A model generated the notes under the pieces. It ran no database searches and was not told the DNA's origin. It was given only the letters and a program-made list of their open reading frames with translations. A program made the position numbers and the translations under genes. DNA of 64,000 bases. It comes from Chloroflexota bacterium (GTDB taxonomy: Bacteria; Chloroflexota; Dehalococcoidia; JABGRK01). The stretch is from the NCBI GenBank assembly GCA_018648325.1, contig JABGRK010000011.1, forward strand, positions 147,578 to 211,577. Direction: 5' to 3'. Shown piece after piece: positions 1,885 to 54,583 of the stretch; position 1 is the stretch's first letter, and each line of letters begins with the position of its first letter.

Positions 1885-2970
1885 ATGAATTTACGTATTC
1901 CCGGTCCAACCCCGTTACCTGATAATGTACTTCAGATCATGTCCAAGCAAATGATAAATCATCGTGGAGTTGAGTTTGGGCAGATACTAAACAGTGTTAC
2001 GGAAAACTTTAAAACGCTGTTTCAAACTAAAAACGATATTTTTGTATATACAACGTCCGGCACAGGTGGTCTTGAGGCTGCCGTGGTCAACACTCTATCA
2101 CCGGGAGACAAGGTGTTAGCAGTTGTTATCGGCGTTTTCGGAGAGCGCTTCGCTCAGATCGCTGAGGTCTATGGTGCAGATGTAACACGACTTGTCTTCG
2201 AATTTGGCACCGGTGCCGATCCCGACAAAGTCAAACAGGCACTTGATGCGGACCCGTCCATTAAAGCAGTACTGGTTACGCATAATGAAACCTCAACCGG
2301 TGTAACCAATGATCTTGAGGCTCTGGCCAAGGTGATAAAGAGCTACGACAAGCTGCTTTTAGTAGATGCTATCAGCAGCCTTGGCTGTATTGATCTTAAG
2401 GTAGACGCATGGAAATGTGATGTTGTGGTAACCGGATCCCAAAAGGGTTGGATGGCACCTCCAGGCGCTGCCATGCTCAGCTTCAGTGCTAAGGCTTGGG
2501 AAGCGGTTGAAAAGTCCAAGATGCCCAAGTTCTATTTTGATGCAAAAAAAGCAAAGAGCTATCTGGAGAAAAACCAGACTCCGTGGACTCCTGGCGTTCC
2601 CACCTTCTACGCTCTTCATGTAGCACTGAACGAATTAGTTAAAGAGGGGCTTGATAGTATATTTGCACGGCATATAAAAACGGCCCAGAAAACGCGTGAT
2701 GGTCTGAAGGCGATGGGCCTGACACTGTTTGCCGAACCTAAATATGCCTCCAATACAATATCGTCAGTCAAGGTCACTGACGGACTTGATGGAATAAAGC
2801 TGTTAAAGATTCTACTTGATGAGCACGATACGGTTATCGCTGGTGGTCAGGCCAACCTGGGTGGTAAGATATTCCGCGTTGGTCACCTGGGATACGTTGT
2901 GGAATCCGAAATCGATGCCGTGCTTGAGGCCTTAAAGCAAGCACTACCCAAAGCCGGATTTAAGGCATAG
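1885..2970 (+). CDS. class V aminotransferase (alanine/serine-glyoxylate or phosphoserine type)
   Basis: This 361-residue pyridoxal-phosphate enzyme belongs to the alanine-glyoxylate/serine-pyruvate aminotransferase group. It opens with RIPGPTPLPDNV, carries a phosphate-binding TSGTGGLEAAV, LLVDAISSLG with the aspartate that contacts the cofactor, and the Schiff-base lysine in GSQKGWMAPPG. An AGGAGGC ribosome site sits seven bases before ATG. serA follows 45 bases later. That context suggests this enzyme does the amination step of serine synthesis in place of a classical SerC, but this is inference. Glyoxylate transamination is the alternative. Confidence 0.85.
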   Translation: MNLRIPGPTPLPDNVLQIMSKQMINHRGVEFGQILNSVTENFKTLFQTKNDIFVYTTSGTGGLEAAVVNTLSPGDKVLAVVIGVFGERFAQIAEVYGADVTRLVFEFGTGADPDKVKQALDADPSIKAVLVTHNETSTGVTNDLEALAKVIKSYDKLLLVDAISSLGCIDLKVDAWKCDVVVTGSQKGWMAPPGAAMLSFSAKAWEAVEKSKMPKFYFDAKKAKSYLEKNQTPWTPGVPTFYALHVALNELVKEGLDSIFARHIKTAQKTRDGLKAMGLTLFAEPKYASNTISSVKVTDGLDGIKLLKILLDEHDTVIAGGQANLGGKIFRVGHLGYVVESEIDAVLEALKQALPKAGFKA

Positions 2971-3015
2971 CATAAAGTTTAACTGGTTAGCAGAGAAAGT
3001 GAGCAGGAGTGTTAC

Positions 3016-4590
3016 ATGAAGGTATTAGTTGCTGATAAGATAGCCGATGAAGGATTGGAAATTCTCAAAAGCTTTGCCGAGGTTGACCTAAAAGTCGGTC
3101 TTGATAAGCAGCAGCTTATTGATATCATGGGTGATTACGATGCTCTTGTGATCCGCAGCCAGCCCAAGGTCACCGCCGATATTATTGAGGCTGGTACAAA
3201 ACTTCAGATTATTGGTCGAGCCGGAGTCGGTGTCGATAATATAGATCTGGAAGCTGCCACCAGACGCGGTATCGTTGTGGTAAACGCCCCTGCAGGAAAC
3301 ACCATCTCCACCGCCGAGCATACGCTGGCACTTATGATGTCGGTGGCTCGTAACATTCCTCAGGCATGCGCTGTTCTAAAAGGTGGACAGTGGAAAAGGG
3401 CCGAGTACACAGGCACTGAGATAACGGGTAAAACGCTTGGTATTGTTGGCATGGGCAGGGTTGGCTCCGAGGTTGCCCGTCGTGCCATTGGTCTTGAGAT
3501 GAAGGTTCTTGTTCACGATCCATTCGTGTCTAAAGATTACGTGCAGAATATTGGGGCTAAGCTGGTTCCGCTTGATGACTTACTGAAAGACTCAGATTTT
3601 ATAACTATTCACACTACGCTTACCGATGCCACCAGAGGGTTGATTGGTTCTGAGCAGCTTGCCACGCTAAAACCAAGCGCGTATATCATCAACGTGGCAC
3701 GCGGCGGCATAATTGATGAGCAGGCACTTCACGATGCTGTCGAGCAGGGCGTAATTGCCGGTGCGGCCATAGATGTTTATACATCGGAACCGGCCACCGA
3801 TAACGTTTTGGTTAAGTGCGATAATATCATAACCACGCCGCACCTTGGTGCTTCCACCAATGAGGCGCAGGTCGGTGTTGCCGTTACTGTCGCAGAGCAG
3901 GTTAACGCTGTTCTAAAGGGAATGCCTGCCAAGTTCGCAGTCAATGCGCCCATTATCCCCGCCGAAACCTTGTCTGTGCTCATGCCCTTTATTGATGTAG
4001 CATCCAAGGTAGGGGAAGTGGTTACTCAATTGGCTGAGGGTCAGCTGGAGAAGGTTGTAATAAACTACAATGGCGATATCGCCAATTACGATACGGCCAC
4101 ACTTAAGGCCTCCGTTATCAAGTCACTGGTAGATCCTGTATCGGAAGAACACGTTAATCTGATCAACGCCAACGTCATCGCCCAGAGCAGGGGACTTAAG
4201 GTTGTTGAGCAGAAAGAAGTTAATATAGAAAACTACGTAAACATGATAACTGTAGAGCTTACCACCGATGCTGGCACCACCAAGGTGGGTGGCACCCTGA
4301 TGCGCGGCGAAACCCACATTGTCCTTATAAACGACTACTGGGTAGACGTTGTAGCCACTGGGGGCTACTGGATGTTCAGCGATCATCTCGATCGTCCCGG
4401 GCTTATCGGCACCGTCGCTTCAACCATAGGTGCTGTTGATGTAAATATCAGTTCCATGCAGGTGGGTCGCTTAAAACCACGCGGACAGGCTTTAATGATT
4501 CTGGGGCTTGATGAGCTTCTTCCCGAGGAGCAGCGCCAAAAGCTGCTTACCATTCCCGATGTCTATAATGCCAAGCAGGTCAAGCTCTAG
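3016..4590 (+). CDS. serA: D-3-phosphoglycerate dehydrogenase
   Basis: SerA oxidises 3-phosphoglycerate to 3-phosphohydroxypyruvate with NAD, the first step of serine synthesis. The 524-residue length is the long bacterial form. It has an N-terminal substrate domain with GRAGVGVDNIDL, a Rossmann NAD site GIVGMGRVGSEVARRA, INVARGGIIDE, the catalytic region ending TTPHLGAST, an intervening domain, and a C-terminal ACT domain (DRPGLIGTVAS, about residues 455-524) that usually binds serine for feedback control. It lies between the class V aminotransferase and the acyl-CoA synthetase on the same strand. No phosphoserine phosphatase (serB) is recognisable in the window. Confidence 0.95.
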   Translation: MKVLVADKIADEGLEILKSFAEVDLKVGLDKQQLIDIMGDYDALVIRSQPKVTADIIEAGTKLQIIGRAGVGVDNIDLEAATRRGIVVVNAPAGNTISTAEHTLALMMSVARNIPQACAVLKGGQWKRAEYTGTEITGKTLGIVGMGRVGSEVARRAIGLEMKVLVHDPFVSKDYVQNIGAKLVPLDDLLKDSDFITIHTTLTDATRGLIGSEQLATLKPSAYIINVARGGIIDEQALHDAVEQGVIAGAAIDVYTSEPATDNVLVKCDNIITTPHLGASTNEAQVGVAVTVAEQVNAVLKGMPAKFAVNAPIIPAETLSVLMPFIDVASKVGEVVTQLAEGQLEKVVINYNGDIANYDTATLKASVIKSLVDPVSEEHVNLINANVIAQSRGLKVVEQKEVNIENYVNMITVELTTDAGTTKVGGTLMRGETHIVLINDYWVDVVATGGYWMFSDHLDRPGLIGTVASTIGAVDVNISSMQVGRLKPRGQALMILGLDELLPEEQRQKLLTIPDVYNAKQVKL

Positions 4591-4608
4591 TAAGGATATA
4601 AGCGTAAT

Positions 4609-6111
4609 ATGAATGTTGCCCGTCTCGCCCAGGAGAACATCGATAAATTCGGTGAGTATGTCAGCATAATCTACGAGGACAAAGAATACACCAATACCCG
4701 GATTGAGTGCGATGGCAGGAAGCTGGGAAACGCTCTACTTCAAATGGGTGTTGTGCGCGCCGATCGTATTATTATACAGATGCCCAACTGTCCAGAGGTG
4801 TTAAGCGCTTTTCAGGCTATATTCAAGATAGGCGCGGTGATTGTTCCCATTAATTACCTTGTGGGACACGATGAACTTACCCACATTTACCGCGACTCAG
4901 GTACCACCACGGTCATAACCAGCATCGAATTTCTGGACAAGGTTAAGGCTGCCAAGGCAGAGGCCCCCAACGTTAAAAACGTTATTCTTGTAGATGGTAG
5001 TGCTCCTGATATGTTCTCGTATACCGATCTAATCGCCGATAGTTCGGATGAACTGGATATGGTTGATACTGAGGATGATGAACTGGCAGCGCTTATTTAT
5101 ACCGCCGGAACAACTGGAAAACCAAAAGGCGTTATGCTTACACACAAGGCGCTATACTCCAATGCTTACAACCAGTACAATACGGTCAATCCTGGGCCGG
5201 AGACCGTTAATATCACGGCGCTACCGCTTTCTCACTCATACGGCGTTGCGCTGATGAACGGCACACTGCTTAACGGCAATAAAACGGTGCTGCTTCGGTG
5301 GTTCAACCTTCAGCAGTATTTTGAGGCTATGGAGAAGTACAAGACGGTGGCTACAACCGCCGTTCCTACTATGTACATTTACATGCTGCTTTATCCCGAT
5401 GCCCATAAGTACGATATCAGCTCCATGAAGTTCTGGGTCTATGGCTCAGCACCTATGTCCAATGATCACATCAAGCAAATGCAAACAAAATTCGGAGCAT
5501 GGATGGTCGAGGGCTGGGGTCTTACGGAGGCAGGTGGTAATAACAGCTTCAACACTCTTGCCGGGTTCAACAAGATGGGCTCCATCGGCACCCCCATGAG
5601 TGGTGTTGAGATGAAGATATTTGATGAAGATAGCAAAGAACTGCCTCAGGGTCAAGCAGGTGAGATTGTTATCCGTGGCGATATGCTGATGCAGGGCTAC
5701 TGGAATATGCCTGAGCAGACGGCCGAGGTGCTGCGTGACGGCTGGTTGTATACCGGCGACATCGGTTACGTAGATGAAGAGGGCTATTTTTATATCACCG
5801 ACCGCAAGAAGGACATGTTGATAAAAGGCGGGGAGAACATCTTCCCTCGTGAAGTTGAAAACGTCCTTATGGATCATTCCTGTGTCATGGAGGCGGCGGT
5901 TATCGGTATTCCCGACGATACCTATGGTGAGAACGTAAAAGCGTTTATTACCCTCGCACCGGAGCAAAAGGTATCAGATGTTGAGCTGATCGCTCATTGT
6001 AAGGAAAAACTGGGTAGTTTCAAGTCGCCCAAGGTTGTTAAATTCATGGATGCCCTTCCTAAAAGCGTTATGGGCAAAATACTAAAAAAAGAACTACGCA
6101 AACTAGATTAG
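4609..6111 (+). CDS. AMP-forming acyl-CoA synthetase / acid-CoA ligase
   Basis: This 500-residue member of the ANL superfamily activates a carboxylic acid to an acyl-adenylate and then a CoA thioester. Visible motifs are the AMP loop YTAGTTGKPKGVML (near residue 162), VYGSAPMS, EGWGLTEAGGNN, the YTGDIG aspartate, the hinge DRKKDMLIKGGENIFPREVE and the catalytic lysine near the end in MGKILKKELRK. The acid substrate (long chain, medium chain or aromatic) cannot be read from sequence. It is 18 bases after serA and 14 before the DUF1015 gene, so it is probably one transcript with them. The link to serine metabolism is not obvious. Confidence 0.9.
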   Translation: MNVARLAQENIDKFGEYVSIIYEDKEYTNTRIECDGRKLGNALLQMGVVRADRIIIQMPNCPEVLSAFQAIFKIGAVIVPINYLVGHDELTHIYRDSGTTTVITSIEFLDKVKAAKAEAPNVKNVILVDGSAPDMFSYTDLIADSSDELDMVDTEDDELAALIYTAGTTGKPKGVMLTHKALYSNAYNQYNTVNPGPETVNITALPLSHSYGVALMNGTLLNGNKTVLLRWFNLQQYFEAMEKYKTVATTAVPTMYIYMLLYPDAHKYDISSMKFWVYGSAPMSNDHIKQMQTKFGAWMVEGWGLTEAGGNNSFNTLAGFNKMGSIGTPMSGVEMKIFDEDSKELPQGQAGEIVIRGDMLMQGYWNMPEQTAEVLRDGWLYTGDIGYVDEEGYFYITDRKKDMLIKGGENIFPREVENVLMDHSCVMEAAVIGIPDDTYGENVKAFITLAPEQKVSDVELIAHCKEKLGSFKSPKVVKFMDALPKSVMGKILKKELRKLD

Positions 6112-44554: not shown

Positions 44555-44583
44555 TTGACCTTTCAGCCTAATTCAGTTAGAAT
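44555..44583 (+). promoter_or_regulatory. promoter of the ferredoxin-AOR operon
   Basis: TTGACC (44555-44560, 5 of 6), a 17-base spacer and TAGAAT (44578-44583, 5 of 6). The ribosome site AAGGAGG is at 44595-44601, so the leader is very short. Confidence 0.65.
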
Positions 44584-44608
44584 AGCAGCGAAGTAAGGAG
44601 GAAAAGCC

Positions 44609-45124
44609 GTGCAAAAGATTATACTTGTTGATCCAACAAAATGCACCGGATGCAGAACATGCGAGATGGTGTGTTCGGTAAAACATCTGGGTGTTTCCAA
44701 TCCGTCACGAGCCAGAATACACATAGTGAAGTGGGAGCAGGAATGCTTTGAAATACCGATGCTTTGCCAGCAGTGCGAAGATGCACCATGTGCAGCGGTA
44801 TGTCCGGTAAGGGCTATCAGTCGTGATGAGGAACTTGGTACAAATACTATAGACCATGACAAGTGCATAGTATGCAAAATGTGCGTGCTCTCATGCCCGT
44901 TTGGCGCAATGAAGTACGATGTCAGGGGCCACAAAGTCTCAAAATGTGACCAGTGTCACGGTGACCCACAGTGTGTTGCTATCTGCGATACGCATGCGGT
45001 TACCTATGTCGATGCCAATATGGCCAACGCAAACAAGCAGCGTGATGCAGCCAGCAAGGGCTATGTCTTAAGAAAAGAACAGAAAGAGGCAATCGGCCCC
45101 GAGGTCGGGCATCCCATGCCCTAA
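44609..45124 (+). CDS. four-cluster ferredoxin (HycB/AOR-partner type)
   Basis: This 171-residue iron-sulfur protein has sixteen cysteines in the four-cluster pattern of HycB/DmsB-like electron-transfer subunits: CTGCRTCEMVCSVKH, CQQCEDAPCAAVCPV, CIVCKMCVLSCPFG and CDQCHGDPQCVAICD. No twin-arginine signal is present, so it is cytoplasmic. It is first in the operon with the aldehyde-oxidoreductase-family gene. The enzyme probably hands electrons to this protein, much as BamC accompanies BamB and similar ferredoxins accompany bacterial AORs. The start is GTG after AAGGAGG. Confidence 0.88.
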   Translation: MQKIILVDPTKCTGCRTCEMVCSVKHLGVSNPSRARIHIVKWEQECFEIPMLCQQCEDAPCAAVCPVRAISRDEELGTNTIDHDKCIVCKMCVLSCPFGAMKYDVRGHKVSKCDQCHGDPQCVAICDTHAVTYVDANMANANKQRDAASKGYVLRKEQKEAIGPEVGHPMP

Positions 45125-45172
45125 GCTTGAATGAGTCCTTTATAAAAAGCAGCCTTATAAGGAGCGTAAGAT

Positions 45173-45661
45173 ATGGCAAAGGGATTTAATCCCCCAAAAA
45201 AAGATAATAAAGACGAAGAAACAGTAACTATACACGGTGTAGAGGTCAAAAAAGATCAGGAAGAATACACCGATCTGCTGGGTCGTAAGATGAAGGTTGA
45301 CAAGAGCAAGAAAGCTTCAGAGGCCCGCCATCGTACCAGTCAGGATGTGGATGTAGCCAAGCAAAAGGGCGTTGAGATGGAAAAAACCGCCAGTGGATAT
45401 TGGCGGCCGGTACGCTCGGTAAGATGTTCAAGCTGTCAAGAGCGCGTTACTGTTCCCAAGGGCGCTGAAACGTTTGAGTGTCCTTTCTGCGGCATGCGCT
45501 ATCGCATTTCCTGGCCTACGCCGGATCAGCCCAGAGTTCGTGGAGCAGTGTGGGATGCAATGCCACCTGCCGGACTTACCTGGCCTAAAGGGTGGCCCGG
45601 TGAGCTCGACGACGATGGCAATCCCATCAAAAAAGATCCGTATGGCACAGGCAAAAAGTAA
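45173..45661 (+). CDS. zinc-ribbon protein in the AOR operon, unknown
   Basis: I do not recognise this 162-residue protein as a named family. The first 80 residues are highly charged and lysine-rich. A zinc ribbon follows (CSSCQERV, then CPFCGMRY 18 residues later), then a Trp/Pro-rich tail (WPTPDQP, PPAGLTWPKGWPGE). It lies between the four-cluster ferredoxin and the AOR-family enzyme with gaps of about 47 bases each. It may be a specific assembly or electron-transfer partner, but nothing in the sequence proves this. Confidence 0.7.
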   Translation: MAKGFNPPKKDNKDEETVTIHGVEVKKDQEEYTDLLGRKMKVDKSKKASEARHRTSQDVDVAKQKGVEMEKTASGYWRPVRSVRCSSCQERVTVPKGAETFECPFCGMRYRISWPTPDQPRVRGAVWDAMPPAGLTWPKGWPGELDDDGNPIKKDPYGTGKK

Positions 45662-45706
45662 ATATTTAATTAATAGAAACCTAATAAAAGGTGGAGTTTA
45701 TTTACT

Positions 45707-47608
45707 ATGACAATGAGTATTAGCAATCAGAAAATAGGTTATGTGAACCTGACCACCGGCGAGATCCGCAAAGAGTATATCACAGAGGATATGCGCAAGT
45801 TCCTTATCGGCAGCCGTGGTTTTAATATGTATCTTATGCATACGCTTACACCCAAGGGAATAGACGCCTTTGATCCCAGGAACTGGTGGTTTATTTCCTG
45901 CGGTGTGCTGGGTGGTATGCTTGTTCCGTCTTGTGGAAGAACGCAGGTATCGGGGCTATCTCCTCTCACAGGAGCAGTTGGTGACAGTAACATGGGCGGT
46001 TTTTTTGGTGTAGAGATGAGGTATTCCGGTTTTGATACCATAGCAGTTACCGGAAAAGCCGAAAAACCTGTTTATTTGTATGTGCATGATGATGAAATCG
46101 AGATATTGGATGCTAAATATATCTGGGGAACAGACACCTCGGATTGCATCGAGAGAATACGTGAAAAGCACAAGGATGCAGATATCAGCGCAGCGATGAT
46201 AGGCCAGGCGGGTGAAAACCTGGTCAGATACGCCAACGTCAGGACCGGCCTTAAATCATCGGCTGGTAGAACTGGCATGGGCGCACTTATGGGTTCCAAG
46301 AACCTGAAGTGTGTTGCCGCCAGAGGAACACAGGATCTACCGCTTCATCAGCCTGAAGAGGCGTTGGCTAACTGGAAATCCGAGGTTGCCAAGGCCAGAG
46401 AGCGCCGCATGGTAAAAACACTTCTGCGGTTTGGTAAAGGTATCTATTTCGGTAATACCAACACCGTTGGCCTGATCAGGGCCTATAACTTTAAACAGAA
46501 CCAGATGCTATATGCAGATGATCTTGAAGTAGAGTCCATGGACAGGTACACCGTTGGTCGCGAGGCCTGTTACGGTTGCCAGATTCACTGTCGTCACAGG
46601 TGGAAGGTGCCGGAGGGCCCGTATAAAGGACACTACGGCGTTGGTCCCGAGTACACATCGCTTGGTTCCATGGGAACTGAGATCGGTAACGTTAAAATGG
46701 ATGTGTGTCTGGCCGCTGACGACCTTGTAAACAAATGGGGTGTCGACAACCTTGAGGCCGGTAGTATGATCGGCTGGGCCATGGAGCTTTATGAGCTTGG
46801 AATACTAACCAAAGAAGATACCGGCGGGCTTGACCTCAAGTGGGGCGACCCCGAGGTTATATATGAGCTGGTCAGACAGATAACCTTTAGAGAGGGTTTG
46901 GGTGATATACTTGCCGAAGGCCCCTTAAGAGCTGCCGAGAAAATCGGCAAAAACTCTGCTTACTACCTGGTACAGGTAAAAGGTATGAGCAACCTGCAGT
47001 CAGATGAGCGCCCAACACCGTCTCTGGCATTGAACGTGGCTGTTGCCACACGTGGTTCCGATCACCTGCGTGGTCGTCCCGTACCGGACCTGTTCGGTTT
47101 ACCGAAGGATGTTCTTGAGAGAATGTATGGCGGTGAGCAGACAACCGACTTTAACTCCTACATGGGTAAACCCAGAATGGTGTGGCATCATGAGATATCA
47201 GCCGCCACGCATGACACCATAGGTAACTGTGGTATGGGTGGACAGCCGGATATGCCTTACACACTTAAGATCAACACAGGTCTTGAGCTAAGCAACGAAG
47301 AGATGTGGACCATCGGTGAGAGAATCCATATAATTGAGCGCTTGTTTAACAAGAGCCGTGGATTTGGCAGAAAAGATGATCACCTAGCCGATCGTTACTA
47401 TGACGTACCCACAACTATGGGTATGCCTAAGGCAAGGGGCAAGACCATTGACCGCGATAAGTTTGAAATCATGCTTGATGAGTTCTACGAGTTGCATGGT
47501 TGTGACAGCGAAGGCCATCCAACTAAAGAAACAATCAAACGTCTTGGCTTGGATAAAGAGCCGTCATATATCCTGGGAACTCCGGGCAAGGAGATCGAAC
47601 TTAAGTAA
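45707..47608 (+). CDS. aldehyde:ferredoxin oxidoreductase family tungsten/molybdenum enzyme
   Basis: This 633-residue AOR-family protein carries a bis-pterin tungsten or molybdenum cofactor and one [4Fe-4S] cluster. It starts with the family opening IGYVNLTTGEIRKE, has GRTGMGALMGSKNLKCVA (pterin contact), the cluster ligands in EACYGCQIHCRH, and a late cysteine in TIGNCGMGG. The family includes aldehyde oxidoreductases and the benzoyl-CoA reductase catalytic subunit BamB, and sequence alone does not settle which. The four-cluster ferredoxin in the operon fits either. A strong terminator follows 113 bases downstream. Confidence 0.88.
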   Translation: MTMSISNQKIGYVNLTTGEIRKEYITEDMRKFLIGSRGFNMYLMHTLTPKGIDAFDPRNWWFISCGVLGGMLVPSCGRTQVSGLSPLTGAVGDSNMGGFFGVEMRYSGFDTIAVTGKAEKPVYLYVHDDEIEILDAKYIWGTDTSDCIERIREKHKDADISAAMIGQAGENLVRYANVRTGLKSSAGRTGMGALMGSKNLKCVAARGTQDLPLHQPEEALANWKSEVAKARERRMVKTLLRFGKGIYFGNTNTVGLIRAYNFKQNQMLYADDLEVESMDRYTVGREACYGCQIHCRHRWKVPEGPYKGHYGVGPEYTSLGSMGTEIGNVKMDVCLAADDLVNKWGVDNLEAGSMIGWAMELYELGILTKEDTGGLDLKWGDPEVIYELVRQITFREGLGDILAEGPLRAAEKIGKNSAYYLVQVKGMSNLQSDERPTPSLALNVAVATRGSDHLRGRPVPDLFGLPKDVLERMYGGEQTTDFNSYMGKPRMVWHHEISAATHDTIGNCGMGGQPDMPYTLKINTGLELSNEEMWTIGERIHIIERLFNKSRGFGRKDDHLADRYYDVPTTMGMPKARGKTIDRDKFEIMLDEFYELHGCDSEGHPTKETIKRLGLDKEPSYILGTPGKEIELK

Positions 47609-47720
47609 AATACACAAGCAAGTACAAGTTGTAACATGAATCTATCCTGAAACAGGCCTTCATACAAATGGAGGGTGAGCTTTAAAATTAAGTAAGGATG
47701 TTATTGTATGTGACCCTATA

Positions 47721-47765
47721 AAAAGACTCTAGGTAACGTAAAGCTTCTAGAGTCTTTTTTATTTT
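47721..47765 (+). terminator. strong terminator between the AOR and Hdr/Fdh operons
   Basis: AAAAGACTCTAG (47721-47732) and CTAGAGTCTTTT (47747-47758) form a perfect 12-bp stem with a 14-base loop, followed by TTATTTT. It separates the AOR transcript from the next operon. No convincing promoter was found between it and 47830; TTGCAA at 47764 with TAAAAG is a weak candidate. Confidence 0.92.
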
Positions 47766-47829: not shown

Positions 47830-49134
47830 ATGGATAAAAAGTCGGTTATTGTTGTCGGCGGCGGAATAGCGGGAATACAGGCCAGTATCGATCTGGGTAG
47901 TATGGGCTACAAGGTTTATCTGGTCGAGAAAACGGCGGCCATTGGCGGTCGTATGGCTCAGTTGGACAAGACGTTTCCCACCAATGATTGCTCTATATGT
48001 ATACTTGCTCCCAAGATGATCGAATGCGTTCGCCATGAAAACGTTGAGCTTGTGACCTATGCCGAACTGCAAGATGTAAAACCCGACAAGTTCGGTGGCT
48101 ACAAAGTCAAGATTCTTAAAAAGCCCCGCTACGTAGATATTGATAAGTGCACCGGTTGTGAAGACTGCATAGCAAAATGCGCCACTAAAACAGCCAACGA
48201 ATTTAACCAGAAGATCGACCAAAGAAAAGCCATTTATATCCCGTTTGCACAGGCCGTTCCCCGCAAGGCCGTTATTGATGCCGAAATATGTCGCTATATC
48301 ATTAATGGTAAATGCGGACTGTGTGAAAAGGTGTGTCAGGCGGGTGCGATTGATTACAATCAAAAAGAAGAGATATTAGAGCTTGATGTTGGGGCCATTG
48401 TTTTGGCAACAGGCTTCGATCTGTACGACATATCGGCAATGAAGGAATATGGCTATGGCAGTATCAAAAACGTGATCACCGCCATGCAGTTTGAGCGCCT
48501 GATATGTGCCTCCGGTCCTACCAGCGGACATCTTGAGAGGCCGTCAGACAGCCAGATTCCCAAAAGGCTGGCCTTCATTCAGTGCGTTGGTTCGCGTGAC
48601 TGGCACAACAATCCGTATTGCTCCAGTGTTTGCTGTATGCACGCCACAAAAGAGGCAATACTAGCCAACGAGCATTACCCTGATCTAAAGCCCTACATCT
48701 TCTATACCGATATGCGTGCTGTGGGCAAGCGCTTCCAGGAATACGTGCAAAGAGCCCATGCGCAATACGACGTGGAATATATCAGAAGCCGCCCCTCAAA
48801 GATCATGGAGGATGAGGAAACCAAGAATCCGGTTATTTACTATGACGACACCGTCGAGCGTAAAGTAAAGCAGATGGAAGTCGATATGGTTGTTCTTTGT
48901 CAGGCGCTGGTGCCTTCTGCAAGCCATAAGGATATTTCCGATATTCTGGGCGTAGGGCTTGACGGTTGCGGCTTTATAAATGTACCGGACAAACTGTTTA
49001 ATCCCATGGATACGGACAAAGATGGGATATTTGCCTGTGGTTTCTGTCAGAGCCCGCAGGATATTCCTGATTCGGTTATTCAAGCCTCAGGATGCGCTGC
49101 CAGAGTAGCTGAATATCTGGCGGAGGTTAAGTAG
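47830..49134 (+). CDS. HdrA-like flavoprotein with iron-sulfur clusters, short form
   Basis: This 434-residue protein is of the HdrA/QmoA type. The FAD fold VIVVGGGIAGIQASIDLGSMGYKVYLVEK starts at residue 6. The HdrA-specific PTNDCSICILAPKMIECVRHENV follows, then ferredoxin-like cysteines (CTGCEDCIAKC and CGLCEKVCQAG) and CVGSRD with YCSSVCCMHATKEA. It lacks the N-terminal extension of full-length HdrA. ATG 47830 with AAAGGG upstream is the start; an upstream in-frame TTG is ignored. It opens a six-gene operon, with the next gene starting at the base after its stop. In bifurcating enzymes HdrA's flavin splits electron pairs. Confidence 0.86.
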   Translation: MDKKSVIVVGGGIAGIQASIDLGSMGYKVYLVEKTAAIGGRMAQLDKTFPTNDCSICILAPKMIECVRHENVELVTYAELQDVKPDKFGGYKVKILKKPRYVDIDKCTGCEDCIAKCATKTANEFNQKIDQRKAIYIPFAQAVPRKAVIDAEICRYIINGKCGLCEKVCQAGAIDYNQKEEILELDVGAIVLATGFDLYDISAMKEYGYGSIKNVITAMQFERLICASGPTSGHLERPSDSQIPKRLAFIQCVGSRDWHNNPYCSSVCCMHATKEAILANEHYPDLKPYIFYTDMRAVGKRFQEYVQRAHAQYDVEYIRSRPSKIMEDEETKNPVIYYDDTVERKVKQMEVDMVVLCQALVPSASHKDISDILGVGLDGCGFINVPDKLFNPMDTDKDGIFACGFCQSPQDIPDSVIQASGCAARVAEYLAEVK

Positions 49135-50838
49135 ATGTCAGATGCACGCGTAGGCGTTTTTGTTTGTCACTGCGGCACCAATATCGGAGGTGTGGTAGAT
49201 GTGTCCGCCGTGGCCCAGTATGCCAAAACACTGCCAAATGTGGTGTGGGCAGAAACCAACCTGTATACATGCTCCGAGGGCGGCCTCGCGTCTATCAGAG
49301 AAAAGATAGAAGAACATAAACTGAATCGAGTGGTGGTTGCTGCCTGTACCCCACGCACGCATGAGCCTCTGTTCAAAAATACCTGCGAAGAAGCAGGCTT
49401 GAACAGATATCTATTTGAGTTTGTTAATATCAGGGAGCATTGCTCCTGGATACATATGCAGGAAAAAGAAGATGCTACCCAGAAGGCCAAGGATCTGGTT
49501 GCCATGGGCATATCCAAGGTGCAGTACCTTGATCCTCAGCAGGAGTATGAGGGTGATGTTTTCGGATCGTCAATGGTCGTCGGCGGCGGCATTGCCGGCA
49601 TGACCTCGGCCTTAAGTCTGGCCAATCAGGGATACGAAGTACATCTGGTCGAGCGGGAAAATGAGCTTGGGGGTTTGCTTAAGGGAGTGCACAAGCTTTT
49701 TCCCACAAACGCAGATGCTCATAAAGTAATTACCCCTATAATTGACAAGGTAAAAGCCCATAAAAACATAAAACTTCACATGCCAGCCCTTATCAATGAC
49801 GTCAAGGGATTTATCGGCGATTTCGATATAACAATTGACGAAAATGGCGCAGACAGCGAGGTTAAAGTAGGAACGATCATTGTTGCTACCGGTGCGCAAG
49901 AGCTCAAGCCCGTTGGCTATCACCACTATGGTGAACTGGAAAATGTCGTTACTCAACTGGAACTTGAGGGCAGGCTCAAAAAAGATGAAAAGTGGCTTCA
50001 CCATATCAAAGGTATTGCCATAATTAACTGCGTTGGCTGCCGCAATGCCGAGAGATCGTATTGCTCAAGGTTCTGTTGCATGACCGCGGTCAAGAATGCG
50101 TGGATACTAAAAGAGGCCAATCCAAAATCCAGGGTTATCGTTTTACATCATGACCTGATGGCTTACGGCGTTGAGTTTGAGGAATACTACAGGAAGGCAA
50201 TGGAAGCCGGAGTACTGTTCCTTAGATATGACTTTGCGAATCCGCCTGAGGTTATCGGCAAGGATAAGGTCGAGCATGTCAAGATTCACGATGAGCTAAC
50301 CGATAGCCACCTTGATGTTGCCTGCGATCTGGTTGTTCTGACCACGCCGCTGGTTTCAGCCAGAGACAACGAGCCTGTTTCAAAGATGCTCAAAGTCCCT
50401 CTGGGTGATGGGATGTTCTTCCTCGAGGCACATGTTAAGCTGCGCCCGGTGGAATTTGCCACCGATGGTGTTTACATAGCTGGCTCGGCGCGCTGGCCTG
50501 TTGATATTGCCGAGAGTATATCGCAGGGTTATGCGGCAGCGGCAAAGGCTGCTATACCGATGAGCAGCGGCAAGATAAAGGTGGAAGCAATAACATCATA
50601 CGTAAATATAGAGCAGTGCGTTGCCTGCGGGACATGCATGCTGGCATGCCCGTTTAGCGCAATTACCGTAATGGACAGTGATGGCAGAGTCCACGCTCAG
50701 GTAAACGAAGCCATGTGCAAAGGCTGCGGAACGTGTGTGGCAACCTGTCCGTCCGGCGCCATACAACAAAAGGGTTGTACCGATCAACAAATCCTGTCCA
50801 TGATAAACACTCTTGCGGAGGTTGGTGGAATTGAGTAA
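49135..50838 (+). CDS. second HdrA-like flavoprotein, long form
   Basis: This 567-residue HdrA/QmoB-like subunit has an N-terminal domain (VGVFVCHCGTNIGGVVDV, VVVAACTPRTHEPLF) and an FAD fold (MVVGGGIAGMTSALSLANQGYEVHLVERENELGG). CVGCRNAERSYCSRFCCMTAVKNA comes next, and a C-terminal two-cluster ferredoxin (CVACGTCMLACPFSA, CKGCGTCVATCPSGA) closes it. It differs from the preceding short HdrA and is likely to pair with it as QmoA and QmoB do. It overlaps the MvhD-like gene by eight bases, and a fused HdrA-MvhD is known in QmoB, so these two genes may equal a split QmoB. Confidence 0.87.
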   Translation: MSDARVGVFVCHCGTNIGGVVDVSAVAQYAKTLPNVVWAETNLYTCSEGGLASIREKIEEHKLNRVVVAACTPRTHEPLFKNTCEEAGLNRYLFEFVNIREHCSWIHMQEKEDATQKAKDLVAMGISKVQYLDPQQEYEGDVFGSSMVVGGGIAGMTSALSLANQGYEVHLVERENELGGLLKGVHKLFPTNADAHKVITPIIDKVKAHKNIKLHMPALINDVKGFIGDFDITIDENGADSEVKVGTIIVATGAQELKPVGYHHYGELENVVTQLELEGRLKKDEKWLHHIKGIAIINCVGCRNAERSYCSRFCCMTAVKNAWILKEANPKSRVIVLHHDLMAYGVEFEEYYRKAMEAGVLFLRYDFANPPEVIGKDKVEHVKIHDELTDSHLDVACDLVVLTTPLVSARDNEPVSKMLKVPLGDGMFFLEAHVKLRPVEFATDGVYIAGSARWPVDIAESISQGYAAAAKAAIPMSSGKIKVEAITSYVNIEQCVACGTCMLACPFSAITVMDSDGRVHAQVNEAMCKGCGTCVATCPSGAIQQKGCTDQQILSMINTLAEVGGIE

Positions 50839-51271
50839 CAACGGTTTTCAGCCCAAATTACTTGCCTTTTGCTGCAATTGGTGTTCATATGCCGGCGCCG
50901 ATCTGGCCGGTGTATCACGGCTGCAAATGCCGCACAATCTACGAGTGATCCGTGTTATGTGCTCAGGCCGCGTCTCGCCCGAATGGGTTATAAAGGCGCT
51001 GTCTTCCGGCATGGATGGTGTTATGGTTCTTGGTTGTCATATCGGCGACTGCCATTACATCGACGGAAACCATCGTACTAAAAAACGTTTTGCTATTCTG
51101 GCAAAACTTCTGGGTACAATGGGCATAAATCCAAACAGGCTGTATCTGGATTGGGTCTCCGCATCAGAGGGAGTCAAATTCCAGGACGTGGTTATCAAAT
51201 TCGTTGACCGTATAAAAGAACTGGGACCAACCCCTATCGGTGCTTATCAAGGAGTAAAGGTTGATAGATAA
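50831..51271 (+). CDS. mvhD: MvhD-like [2Fe-2S] subunit
   Basis: This 146-residue protein is of the methyl-viologen-reducing hydrogenase delta family: KLLAFCCNWCSYAGADLAG, IRVMCSGRVSPEWVIKAL and GVMVLGCHIGDCHY. It carries a [2Fe-2S] cluster that links an electron-input enzyme to HdrA; in methanogens either hydrogenase or formate dehydrogenase docks here. I chose TTG 50831, with GGAGGT eight bases upstream inside the previous gene. All cysteines are ordinary codons, unlike selenocysteine-bearing BamF relatives. Confidence 0.9.
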   Translation: MSNNGFQPKLLAFCCNWCSYAGADLAGVSRLQMPHNLRVIRVMCSGRVSPEWVIKALSSGMDGVMVLGCHIGDCHYIDGNHRTKKRFAILAKLLGTMGINPNRLYLDWVSASEGVKFQDVVIKFVDRIKELGPTPIGAYQGVKVDR

Positions 51272-52061
51272 GGTTCGCCAATTAGTAGTTGATTTACTAG
51301 ACAGTGGAAGAGCAGATGCTGTTCTGGCTTTGGCTAATGTTCATGCCAATGTTCAGCCATATCTGTATAAGAAGGGCGATAGTCTGGACAGTCTTGCCCT
51401 GTGGCCAAAGTACTCCATGGGCCCGATACTTAAGTCTATCCAGGCCGCACAACCGGATATGAAGCTGGCAGTAGTGGCCAGAGGCTGTGATGACAGGGCG
51501 CTGGTTGAACTGGCAAAAAGAGGCCAGATTGATCTCAATAACGTTCAAATCATAGGGCTGGCGTGCACTGCAGACGAGGCCACTGAGTGTGAGTGTGCAA
51601 ATCCCTATCCGGCAAACATAGATGTTGGAAATAAGGTTGACGGCGTTGCATCTACTGATCTGCTTGCCGAGCTTAAAGGCAAGAGTTACGATGATCGTTT
51701 GATCTTCTGGAAACAGGCCTTTGACAAGTGCATTAAATGCTACGGTTGCCGTAATGCCTGTCCGCTTTGTATATGCGAGGAATGTATTTTAGAAGATGAT
51801 TCATGGGTCAAAGCTGGTGAGATACCGCCACCGTTTCCCATATTCCATCTTATCAGGGCATATCACTTGAGCGACAAGTGTGTTGAGTGTGGCGAGTGCC
51901 AGAATTCCTGCCCTATGGATATTCCGCTTACATCGCTGTACGCCCTTATCAGAAACGAGTTCAACGAATTGTTTGACTATATACCCGGCGCAGAAATTGA
52001 TCGCAAGTCGCCACTGGTGACATCACTGGAGGAAGATCCAATTCGGGAGGAGACAGCTTGA
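51261..52061 (+). CDS. FdhB/FrhB-like iron-sulfur subunit
   Basis: This 266-residue protein is related to the beta subunit of F420-dependent formate dehydrogenase and hydrogenase. It has an N-terminal alpha/beta domain (KLAVVARGCDDRALVELAKRG, IGLACT) and cysteine sets CIKCYGCRNACPLCICEEC and CVECGECQNSCPMDIPLTS. The first set is the FrhB-type cysteine-dense motif. It overlaps mvhD by 11 bases and the formate dehydrogenase by four. It probably channels electrons between the formate dehydrogenase catalytic subunit and MvhD/HdrA. Whether it binds FAD or a deazaflavin is not visible. The start is TTG after AAGGAG. Confidence 0.83.
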   Translation: MIDKVRQLVVDLLDSGRADAVLALANVHANVQPYLYKKGDSLDSLALWPKYSMGPILKSIQAAQPDMKLAVVARGCDDRALVELAKRGQIDLNNVQIIGLACTADEATECECANPYPANIDVGNKVDGVASTDLLAELKGKSYDDRLIFWKQAFDKCIKCYGCRNACPLCICEECILEDDSWVKAGEIPPPFPIFHLIRAYHLSDKCVECGECQNSCPMDIPLTSLYALIRNEFNELFDYIPGAEIDRKSPLVTSLEEDPIREETA

Positions 52062-54094
52062 ACTGCGATTTTGTATTAACAACCTGTCCTTATTGCGGCT
52101 GCGGCTGTAACTTCTACCTTCAGGTCATCGATGGCAAGGCTGTGGGAGTCGTGCCGTGCAAAACCCATCCCGTAAGCAAGGGTACGCTGTGTATCAAGGG
52201 CTGGAATGCCCATCAGTTCGTACACGATGAAAAAAGGCTGACCAAACCGCTTATCAAGAAAAGTGGAAGGTTTGAAGAAGTCAGCTGGGATGAGGCGCTG
52301 GATTATACCGCAAAGCGTATGCTTGAGATTAAAGAAAAAACCGGGCCAGACTCTTTTGGATTTTTGAGCTCGGCTAAGTGCACCAATGAAGAAAACTACC
52401 TGCTGATGAAATTATCAAGGGGGGTAATGGGCACAAACAACGTAGATCATTGTGCCCGGCTCTGACATTCACCAACGGTGGCCGGTCTGGTCGCCTCCTT
52501 TGGCAGCGGTGCAATGACCAACTCGATTGACGAGTTTGAGGATGCCGATTGTATTCTGATCACAGGTTCCAATACAACGGAAAACCATCCGCTTATAGCT
52601 AACAGAATACTGCGCGCACAAGAAAAAGGCGCCAAAGTTATCGTGATCGATCCCCGCAAAACGCAAATAGGCGACCTTGCAGATATTTATGCACGTCAAA
52701 ACCTGGGCAGTGACGTTGCATGGTTGAACGGTCTGATAAACGTGATCATTTCCGAAGGCTGGTACGACAAAGAGTTTGTCTCAGGTCGTACCGAGGGCTT
52801 TGAAGAGCTCAAAGCCAAGGTTGCCGATTATACCCCGGACAAGATAGAGCAGATTTCCGGCATACCGGCAGCTACTATCAAGCAGATCGCCGAAGCATAT
52901 GCCAAAGCTGAAAACGGGTCCATTGTATATTGCATGGGCATAACCCAGCACATAAGCGGCACAGATAACGTTATGTCACTGGCAAATCTGGCCATGGTTA
53001 CCGGCAACGTGGGCAAAAGAAGCACCGGCGTTAACCCGCTCAGAGGTCAGAACAACGTGCAGGGCGCCTGCGACTTAGGAGCGCTACCCAACGTGTTTAC
53101 CGGCTATCAGGCAGTTATTAATGACGAACTGCGCGCCAAGTTTGAAAAAGCGTGGGGTGTGAAGCTGGACGGCAAGGTGGGCCAGACCATCATGGAAATG
53201 ATGAACAACGCGCATGATGGCAAACTTGCGGGTATGTACGTCATGGCCGAAAACCCAATGCTATCTGATCCTGACATAAATCATGTACGTGAAGCCCTTG
53301 AAAACCTTGACTTTTTAGTAGTGCAGGACATATTTATGACCGAGACTGCCCAGCTTGCAGATGTGGTGCTGCCGGGCACAACTTATGCCGAAAAAGACGG
53401 CACAATTACCAATACCGATCGCACCGTGCAGAGATGTCGCAAAGCGATCGAGCCCATAGGTGACAGTAAGCCAGACTGGGAGATACTCGCGCTGCTGGGC
53501 CAGAAGATGGGTATCAGCAATTTCGACTACAACTCGCCTGAGGATGTGTACAAAGAGATCATGGCCGTTACACCTATTTACGCAGGCATCAGCTATGAGC
53601 GTATCGAAAACGAAACCTTGCACTGGCCATGTCCAACCGCCGATCATCCCGGAACCTTGTTCCTGCATAGCGGCACCTTCTCACGCGGCTTGGGTGCGCT
53701 AAAAAGTATTGACTACAGAGAACCGGCCGAGATGCCGGATAATGATTACCCGATGCAACTGACCACCGGCAGAATGATGTTCCATTTCCATACCGGAACC
53801 ATGACCAGAAACTCACCAGCTTTACATAAAGAAGTCAAGGAATCCTATGTCGAGGTCAATCCGTCCGATGCAAAAGAGCAGGGCATAGTTGAGGATGAGA
53901 AGATCTCAATTGCTTCACGTCGGGGCCAGATTGAGGCAAAGGCCAGGATAACCAATAAAGTTGGCAGGGGAGTGGTGTTTATCCCGTTCCACTTTGTGGA
54001 GGGTGCGGCAAATGTGCTCACAAACCCTGCACTTGATCCCGTGGCCAAAATACCTGAATATAAGGTTTGCGCAGTTAAGGTAGAAAAAATCTAA
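52058..54094 (+). CDS. fdhA: formate dehydrogenase catalytic subunit, selenoprotein
   Basis: This is one reading frame of 678 residues in which UGA at 52463-52465 is read as selenocysteine (residue 136). The context is DHCARL-Sec-HSPTVAGL, directly comparable with the active site of E. coli FdhF (CARV-Sec-HGPSVAG). The N-terminus has the [4Fe-4S] motif CPYCGCGCNF. The later part has the molybdopterin-dinucleotide domains (LITGSNTTENHPLIANRI, VIDPRKTQIGDLAD, GVNPLRGQNNVQGACDLG, MQLTTGRMMFHFHTGTMTRNSP). It oxidises formate or reduces CO2 with a molybdenum or tungsten cofactor. The start is TTG overlapping the previous gene by four bases. Annotation tools that stop at UGA would split it. Confidence 0.95.
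52466..52510 (+). promoter_or_regulatory. bacterial SECIS hairpin directing selenocysteine at UGA 52463
   Basis: Just after UGA, GGTGGCC (52477-52483) pairs with GGTCGCC (52489-52495) around the loop GGTCT (52484-52488). The GGUCU apical loop lies 18 bases after the UGA, as in E. coli fdhF, where SelB contacts it. The stem has two G-U pairs. Confidence 0.88.
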
Positions 54095-54115: not shown

Positions 54116-54583
54116 GTGGAAGATAAGATCGATAAACTGATACACGAGTACAAGTTATATTACTGCGTAGAGTGCGGCAAGTGTGTTGCTGCCTGCCCCA
54201 TGAACGTTATATACGATGATTTCACCTATGGTTTTTCCTCCAGAGGTATTATCAGAAAAGTCATACTGGAGCAGGATGTGGTCGATGGTGAGGACATATG
54301 GAATTGCCTGAACTGCAAGTTGTGCGAGGAAGTTTGCCCTGCAGGCGTTAAGTTCTCCGACTTCATAAAAGATGCCAGGGAAAAAGCTATCGCCGAAGGA
54401 CATTCAGAGAATGCGGCTCATTGCGATCGCTGTGGCACTTACTACCTGCCTGTGCGAACGGTATCGGCCTATAAACATATGCTTGATAAGAACCATCGCC
54501 CCGAGGAATTCACCAATCTATGCCCCAAGTGCAAGTTGGACTCTAGCGCCGAACATATGAAGCTGGATGTGTTCAAGAGGTAA
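54116..54583 (+). CDS. hdrC: HdrC-like iron-sulfur protein with C-terminal cysteine pair
   Basis: This 155-residue protein resembles heterodisulfide reductase subunit C: two [4Fe-4S] motifs, YYCVECGKCVAACPMN and CLNCKLCEEVCPAGVKFSDF, separated by RGIIRKVIL. The C-terminal tail adds CDRCGTYYLP and, 29 residues on, CPKC. This is the same arrangement as in the protein at 36461-37174. In classical complexes HdrC relays electrons to HdrB, but no HdrB with CCG motifs lies here. The start is GTG after GAGGAG, 21 bases from fdhA. It closes the operon. Confidence 0.85.
   Translation: MEDKIDKLIHEYKLYYCVECGKCVAACPMNVIYDDFTYGFSSRGIIRKVILEQDVVDGEDIWNCLNCKLCEEVCPAGVKFSDFIKDAREKAIAEGHSENAAHCDRCGTYYLPVRTVSAYKHMLDKNHRPEEFTNLCPKCKLDSSAEHMKLDVFKR

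Follow-up and report, generated by a model that had tools for sequence, protein, structure and literature searches.

A WOR-family gene set of Chloroflexota with a conserved zinc-ribbon partner and a non-canonical active site

The 64,000-nucleotide stretch of Chloroflexota DNA analyzed here (hereafter the window, to which all coordinates refer) carries a compact gene set in which a promoter is followed by the genes of a ferredoxin, a zinc-ribbon protein (ZR), and an AOR-family enzyme, and then by a terminator hairpin (table 1). The set represents a WOR-family variant with a large subunit (WorL) and a four-cluster small subunit (WorS), to which ZR adds a newly recognized conserved partner. The genome in question (G000) measures 2.0 Mb, is 93% complete, and has 13 AOR_N matches. 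A preliminary description, made from the letters of the window alone, had reported a four-cluster ferredoxin, a zinc-ribbon protein with a Lys-rich start and a Trp/Pro-rich end, and an AOR-family gene, all of which are present where it had placed them. The promoter that it had put before the ferredoxin gene was likewise recovered, with its −35 hexamer and spacing of 17 conserved in the sister genome L021, sites of this kind being not rare (7 observed vs. 5.8 ± 2.8 in shuffles). The terminator said to separate this operon from the next was found as a 14-bp hairpin with a T-run (−16.1 kcal/mol; none of 200 shuffles was equally good), which the consensus scan had missed because the hairpin loop is long. 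Compared with the genus-mate G039, dN/dS is about 0.02 for the ferredoxin, 0.06 for ZR, and 0.04 for the AOR, with changes mostly at third codon positions: the three are real genes under purifying selection.

The ZR protein displays a C-x2-C...C-x2-C pattern between its Lys-rich N-terminus and its Trp/Pro-rich C-terminus. No Pfam or NCBIfam family exceeds its cut-off for the window copy, whose sequence had no PDB match at E 1, and a compact ZR found no match in plasmids. Searching 294 class genomes with a single sequence gave 12 places in 6 genomes, and profile searches of 400 phylum genomes, 6 chosen genomes, and 393 class genomes brought the total to 18 confident places in 11 Chloroflexota genomes, with three copies each in G000, G039, and G059, two in G105, and a single one in G042, G245, G303, G662, G717, G738, and G696. 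The profile searches split the hits cleanly, confident ones lying at or below 5.2e-10 and weak ones at or above 1.9e-5. As confident hits occur in 10 of the 393 class genomes and 2 of the 400 phylum genomes, the gene is rare. It is nonetheless not private to this operon, as had been proposed, with two paralogs in the window's genome and homologs in ten others; its description as a new element has on the other hand been borne out, ZR being a real and unnamed protein. Literature searches on AOR with zinc-ribbon, zinc-finger, or zinc-binding proteins found no ZR pairing, their one match dealing with ubiquitin-like proteins in its accessible part (PMC1779556), and neither did those on LysW carriers and aldehydes or on Chloroflexota AOR and benzoyl-CoA. 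The protein thus seems to be previously undescribed.

Seven residues (R84, C85, C88, R91, C103, C106, and W114 in window numbering) are invariant in all 18 homologs; the two Arg and the Trp among them do not serve as ligands of the zinc. The core is also the most conserved part between the window and genus-mate proteins (57 of 60 identical positions over residues 71–130, 55 of 70 over residues 1–70). The Lys-rich N-terminus is confined to the window's genus, the WPxGxPGELD tail is common only to the second paralog pair of the same genus, and the C-termini of the homologs are mutually unlike and mostly basic. The 162-residue ZR is a genus-specific elaboration of a core of 50–90 residues. PF12172 (ChsH2/DUF35) is not among the 25 most frequent of the 59 Pfam families matching the 18 members. 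A rubredoxin-like electron carrier was considered and set aside, the distance between the two CxxC motifs being about 14, as in zinc ribbons, against the spacing of rubredoxins.

All 18 confident ZR genes share a strand with an adjacent AOR-family gene. In 16 cases, ZR lies directly upstream of the AOR, sometimes overlapping it, and the remaining two follow the order AOR–ferredoxin–ZR. By contrast, an AOR was found near none of the 28 weaker ZR-like loci of one set and none of the 7 of another; G012:C32 belongs to both sets, which represent part of all the weak rows listed, and four weak rows from the six-genome ZR search fall outside this separate examination. The preliminary description had suggested checking whether ZR always neighbors this AOR type, and it does so in 18 of 18 places, with no confident ZR away from an AOR: the ZR family is tied to this AOR type. 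The view of ZR as a ubiquitous zinc ribbon was rejected on the clean split between confident and weak hits and the lack of an AOR near the weak loci examined.

The large subunit matches AFOR_N (PF02730, 9.6e-66) and AFOR_C (PF01314, 2.8e-96) far above cut-off. In a 15-sequence alignment, the [4Fe-4S] cysteines C288, C291, and C508 are invariant and C295 nearly so, all being present in P0003. By sequence it is closest to AOR structures, BamB being the weakest of nine PDB matches (5.5e-55, vs. 1.1e-88 for Pyrococcus furiosus AOR), and the Aromatoleum AOR (8c0z) and a WOR (9mqx) are among its nearest solved relatives. The ferredoxin has 16 Cys in four [4Fe-4S] motifs, as read from its sequence, and its best PDB matches are the Fe–S subunits 8c0z_C (1.8e-40) and 9mqx_E, whereas the BamC chain 4z3w_E reaches only 4.4e-10; BamC carries three clusters (PMC13328260, accessible part). 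Class II WORs are defined by a four-cluster small subunit adjacent to the large one, and the window set has this arrangement, its ferredoxin being closest in the PDB to the small subunits of WORs.

To place the enzyme, we inferred a 98-row AOR tree from 92 locus rows of at least 390 aa and six PDB references. Shorter fragments were dropped, including the AOR of G696 (a 74-aa end), which leaves 17 placeable ZR-linked rows. All 17 fall in one 42-row clade (SH-aLRT 99), such that ZR-linked rows make up 17 of 42 inside this clade and 0 of 56 outside, the former not being an unbiased frequency because 18 of the loci (L213–L230) were chosen as high-scoring relatives of the query. The ZR label requires six changes on the tree, vs. 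15.8 when shuffled (0 of 500 shuffles as low), and ZR was therefore gained or lost several times. In a chosen subset of 45 rows, run with bootstrap, support was 100/100 for the focal clade, 100/100 for BamB, and 100/99 for AOR sensu stricto. The window enzyme accordingly stands outside ordinary AORs, in a clade of its own, when the preliminary description had considered that a position inside them would speak against its reading. Two loci, L112 and L113 (G245:C20), carry the same AOR gene in opposite orientations close to either end of one contig, and are probably a repeat or an assembly artefact.

The active site of this clade is distinctive (numbering of P. furiosus AOR, checked on typed chains). 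According to the accessible text of PMC12096430, the second-shell residues of most AORs are Thr243, Glu313, Tyr427, and His448, Glu313 acting as general base and Tyr427 in substrate positioning; most characterized AORs keep all four, and an exchange of the Tyr has been suggested to underlie the inactivity of WOR4. In the same source, BamB has Cys322 as metal ligand together with Glu251/His255/Glu257/His260, and YdhV also has the Cys. The window enzyme has K243, E311, Y312, T313, S427, H448, and R452, so that only His448 is retained from the AOR set. Nor does it have the residues of benzoyl-CoA reductase, which the preliminary description had proposed to check: a Gly stands at the Cys322 column, and all four Zn-site residues are replaced, by Y, T, T, and R. 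Glu313 occurs in none of the 41 readable clade rows (T 14, S 12, G 5, I 4, Y 3, A 2, and N 1), in a column made unambiguous by its motif context (GPEY-T-S vs. GPEY-E-S), Tyr427 in 0 of 39, and Cys322 in 0 of 41, while Arg452 is found in 38 of 40 and His448 in 33 of 40. Outside the clade, Glu313 is present in 32 of 56 rows and Cys322 in 16 of 56. At the level of the sequence, the focal clade thus has a third kind of active site, matching neither AOR nor BamB, and the lack of Glu313, Tyr427, and Cys322 makes ordinary aldehyde oxidation improbable. Two further AORs, L026 (10801–12705; from G000:C9) and L118 (G039), have the ZR-type active site with neither a ZR nor a ferredoxin gene adjoining. 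A second AOR group (L037, L120, L130, L132, L139, L141, and L143) has a Cys at the BamB-322 column without the Zn-site residues, and resembles the description of YdhV in the accessible literature.

The preliminary description had linked the enzyme to class II benzoyl-CoA reductase. The identity of the enzyme with BamB does not survive the above comparisons, and the link to benzoyl-CoA metabolism stands as a matter of gene neighborhood only. BamB-like proteins of the window's genome lie on another contig, as three AORs with Cys322 at about 179.8–186.5 kb of C7, one of which (P0004) scores 831 bits to 4z3w; these three neighboring genes (L025, 5847–12469, minus strand) have a PaaX-type regulator and FdhD nearby. 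They differ at Glu251/His255 (L/N, M/H, and E/H) and may therefore act on different substrates. A second ZR–AOR pair (C7:165950–168114) lies about 12 kb from them and follows the genes of a 2-oxoacid:ferredoxin oxidoreductase akin to phenylglyoxylate dehydrogenase, with scores below curated cut-offs. Within about 24 kb of G245:C6, ZR–AOR–ferredoxin (from 54.3 kb) is accompanied by an HdrA/HdrA2/MvhD/FrhB-like set (about 62–67 kb), NuoEFG-like genes, a long HdrA, and a BamB-like AOR with Cys322 (75.7–77.7 kb). In G662:C10, had and oah, both above curated cut-offs, come 4.6 kb after the ZR trio on the same strand, and both lie about 14–16 kb away on the ZR contig G303:C137. Overall, six ZR loci sit on contigs longer than 25 kb, and in four of these a bamB-like gene, had, or oah occurs within 25 kb, a count uncontrolled for chance proximity, and Had is found in 7 of 11 ZR genomes vs. 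0 of 5 ZR-less genomes with clade AORs (the G717 match being partial and under cut-off).

Other neighbors recur in this clade. A Fer4-CCG protein (GlpC/LdhH-like, 670–700 aa) is the neighbor of eight clade AORs, of which two have a ZR and six do not (L215, at 2662–4707, L216, L217, L213, L220, L100, L214, and L174), and the same query matched next to none of the other AORs in the set; this adjacency suggests an electron outlet of Hdr or quinone type, the protein being possibly the electron partner of the clade. A small zinc-ribbon protein and a thiolase-like gene lie near the ZR–AOR set in G245 (L029, 12076–13770) and G662 (L172, 12019–13610); the former is of ChsH2 type in G245, and the latter was recognized by eye in G245 and by search in G662.

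The operon that follows in the window encodes Hdr-, MvhD-, and formate dehydrogenase-like proteins (table 1). Its formate dehydrogenase alpha subunit, split in the lists of open reading frames (ORFs), is one selenoprotein with TGA read as selenocysteine (DHCARLUHSP), and the genome contains a tRNA-Sec match of 71.1 bits. No BamG–I (NuoEFG-like) subunit was found among the ORFs of this operon to 54583, to which the scan was limited. A relative of this Hdr operon adjoins a bam-type cluster in another family (HdrA2 61% identity). Both operons of the window may form one redox system, as had been proposed, a possibility that receives indirect comparative backing from G245, which holds ZR–AOR–ferredoxin, an Hdr relative, and a bam-type cluster close together.

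Table 1. Features of the WorL–WorS–ZR locus and of the following operon (window coordinates)
Feature	Coordinates	Strand	Remarks
Sigma-70-like promoter, TTGACC-17-TAGAAT	44555..44583	+	10/12 consensus matches; 5' of ferredoxin gene
Ferredoxin subunit, WorS type	44609..45124	+	Four [4Fe-4S] clusters; GTG start; 171 aa
ZR protein	45173..45661	+	162 aa; core about residues 75–130
AOR/WOR-family large subunit (WorL)	45707..47608	+	633 aa; non-canonical active site
Intrinsic terminator hairpin between the two transcripts	~47720..47759	+	z −3.6
HdrA-like flavoprotein, first of two	47830..49134	+	ATG 47830; listed ORF starts 47773, TTG
HdrA2-like flavoprotein	49135..50838	+	61% identical relatives in G717, G245
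MvhD/FlpD-like subunit	50813..51271	+	PF02662 4.6e-54; start uncertain
Fe–S protein	51261..52061	+	Positional counterpart of FrhB/FdhB-like 326-aa protein in G245
Formate dehydrogenase alpha subunit	52058..54094	+	In-frame TGA 52463–52465
HdrC-like Fe–S subunit	54116..54583	+	

From the gene trio, its conservation, the ZR–AOR linkage, the clade, and the missing residues, we infer a physical association of ZR with WorL, as well as the metal content, substrate, electron partner, and ZR mechanism proposed hereafter. The explanation that we retain, with confidence evenly divided for and against it, is that of a tungsten-type WorL–WorS enzyme with a dedicated ZR partner, probably carrying out something other than ordinary aldehyde oxidation. 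ZR would most likely be a small subunit with a structural or docking role on WorL; from the gene neighborhoods, the most likely task of WorL is a redox step at low potential in the anaerobic breakdown of aromatic or alicyclic acids, whose electrons would reach ferredoxin or an Hdr-type module by way of WorS. Three features favor a protein–protein role of ZR: its Arg and Trp next to the zinc site never vary, it is tightly coupled to WorL, and it is absent away from WorL; we rank a subunit before a maturation factor. A bolder version, possible if doubtful in our eyes, would make of the clade a third functional class of AOR/WOR enzymes, with ZR as a genuine subunit assisting a tungsten enzyme in a new reaction at low potential, whose substrates would be aromatic or alicyclic acids or the CoA esters of these, and Arg452 and His448 replacing the Glu/His relay.

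Several observations weigh against the explanation that we retain. A conserved gene pair is no proof of a complex. ZR-less rows make up 25 of 42 in the AOR clade (these rows having partly been chosen as the best relatives of the query), and L026 and L118 share the same T313/S427/H448/R452 site without ZR, which is therefore not essential to that active site; these two enzymes offer a natural test of what ZR contributes. Eight rows outside the clade also have neither Glu313 nor Cys322, several of them on long branches. As for the metabolic context, there is no control rate for any AOR lying near bam genes, neither the window copy nor the C4 copy has such genes nearby, 12 of the 18 ZR loci lie on contigs of 25 kb or less, where context is not judgeable, and no Had was found in the window's genome at E 1e-60 nor in G039.

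Alternatively, ZR could be a dedicated maturation factor or chaperone that inserts the tungsten cofactor or the [4Fe-4S] cluster into members of the WorL clade and is absent from the finished enzyme. Its position directly upstream of WorL with tight spacing would fit, as would the existence of ZR-less clade members, expected if general maturation can substitute. In addition, 14 of the 18 ZR members weakly match the metallochaperone family HypA, yet these matches look like generic zinc-ribbon ones (best E 2.3e-4; 14 bits for the window ZR vs. a cut-off of 28.9), and the known pterin-synthesis neighbors are MoaD/WorX-like and unrelated to ZR in the accessible texts (PMC1779556, PMC13328260), the former listing MoaD, MoeB, and ferredoxin as AOR neighbors and no zinc ribbon. 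On balance, we regard this role as rather unlikely. A comparably unfavorable judgment falls on an ordinary tungsten-dependent aldehyde oxidoreductase that tolerates second-shell substitutions, ZR being a minor stabilizing protein: the closest solved structures are indeed AORs, the ferredoxin resembles AOR small subunits, and the window enzyme retains His448, Glu311, and Tyr312, but Glu313 and Tyr427 are missing from every readable clade row (41/41 and 39/39), when most characterized AORs retain the four residues and WOR4 may be inactive through its Tyr exchange (PMC12096430, accessible part).

The structure models of ZR raise a different option, that of a LysW-like carrier to which an acyl or aldehyde intermediate would be covalently bound for use by the AOR-type enzyme. 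LysW has its acceptor in a C-terminal EDWGE. The AF2 models have mean pLDDT values of 70 (window ZR) and 76 (compact ZR), with zinc-ribbon cores of about 80–87, and LysW chains lead both lists of structural matches, as the five best for the window ZR (5eio_C, Z 5.1, 1.8 Å over 44 residues) and the top two for the core (3wwl, Z 4.9, 3.3 Å over 52); LysW_Arch also matches the window ZR weakly (E 5.5e-4). However, Z values of about 5 are in the range of a common arrangement and below the level of a clear match, the scores of RBR-ligase zinc domains come close to them, and the EDWGE terminus is absent from all 18 homologs, whose C-termini are dissimilar. We thus see a carrier as quite improbable. 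Least credible of all is a class II benzoyl-CoA reductase (BamB–BamC) or a close variant, with the next operon as BamD–F. A common superfamily and the Hdr/MvhD-like operon that comes next had made it attractive, but the residues, the tree, and the ferredoxin type led us to reject it: Cys322 and the Zn-site residues are absent, BamB is the weakest PDB match and forms a separate clade, and the ferredoxin is unlike BamC, to which the separate BamB-like proteins of the genome and the terminator between the operons may be added.

If the WorL–WorS–ZR reading is retained, this trio becomes a target for a new tungsten-dependent reaction in the anaerobic metabolism of uncultured Chloroflexota, and ZR a gene marker for recognizing this enzyme type. 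More than 4,000 WORs have been sorted by their subunits into five classes (PMC13328260), and the accessible main text of that survey contains neither "zinc" nor "Chloroflexi/Chloroflexota", and no class with a zinc-ribbon partner. Chloroflexi with class I benzoyl-CoA reductase and with AOR have been described, without ZR pairing in the accessible parts (PMC5736913, PMC7117926). In the accessible text of PMC12096430, two AOR-family clades, BamB and YdhV, are without an aldehyde-type site, each having a Cys as metal ligand, and all other clades with a characterized member are variants of aldehyde oxidation. A clade with neither residue set, often with ZR and several times near benzoyl-CoA genes, suggests that the chemistry of the family is broader.

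Among known systems, Class II WORs (WorL and WorS; P. furiosus ASOR and Caldicellulosiruptor bescii GOR), as accessible in PMC13328260, likewise combine an AOR-family large subunit with an adjacent four-cluster ferredoxin; unlike them, the window set adds a ZR gene and has neither Glu313 nor Tyr427. The Aromatoleum AOR (8c0z) and the WOR (9mqx), whose ferredoxins are the nearest solved relatives, keep T243/E313/Y427/H448 where the window enzyme has K/T/S/H. LysW chains are the top structural matches of the ZR models, at low Z, whereas LysW differs from ZR in gene context and has the EDWGE terminus that ZR lacks. The YdhV clade is also without the AOR second-shell residues, and differs in having a Cys metal ligand (PMC12096430, accessible part), of which the focal clade has none. 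With BamBC, finally, the window enzyme shares its superfamily, and in two genomes bam-type genes are found close to related sets; it differs in its metal-site residues, in a ferredoxin of four rather than three clusters, and in forming a clade of its own.

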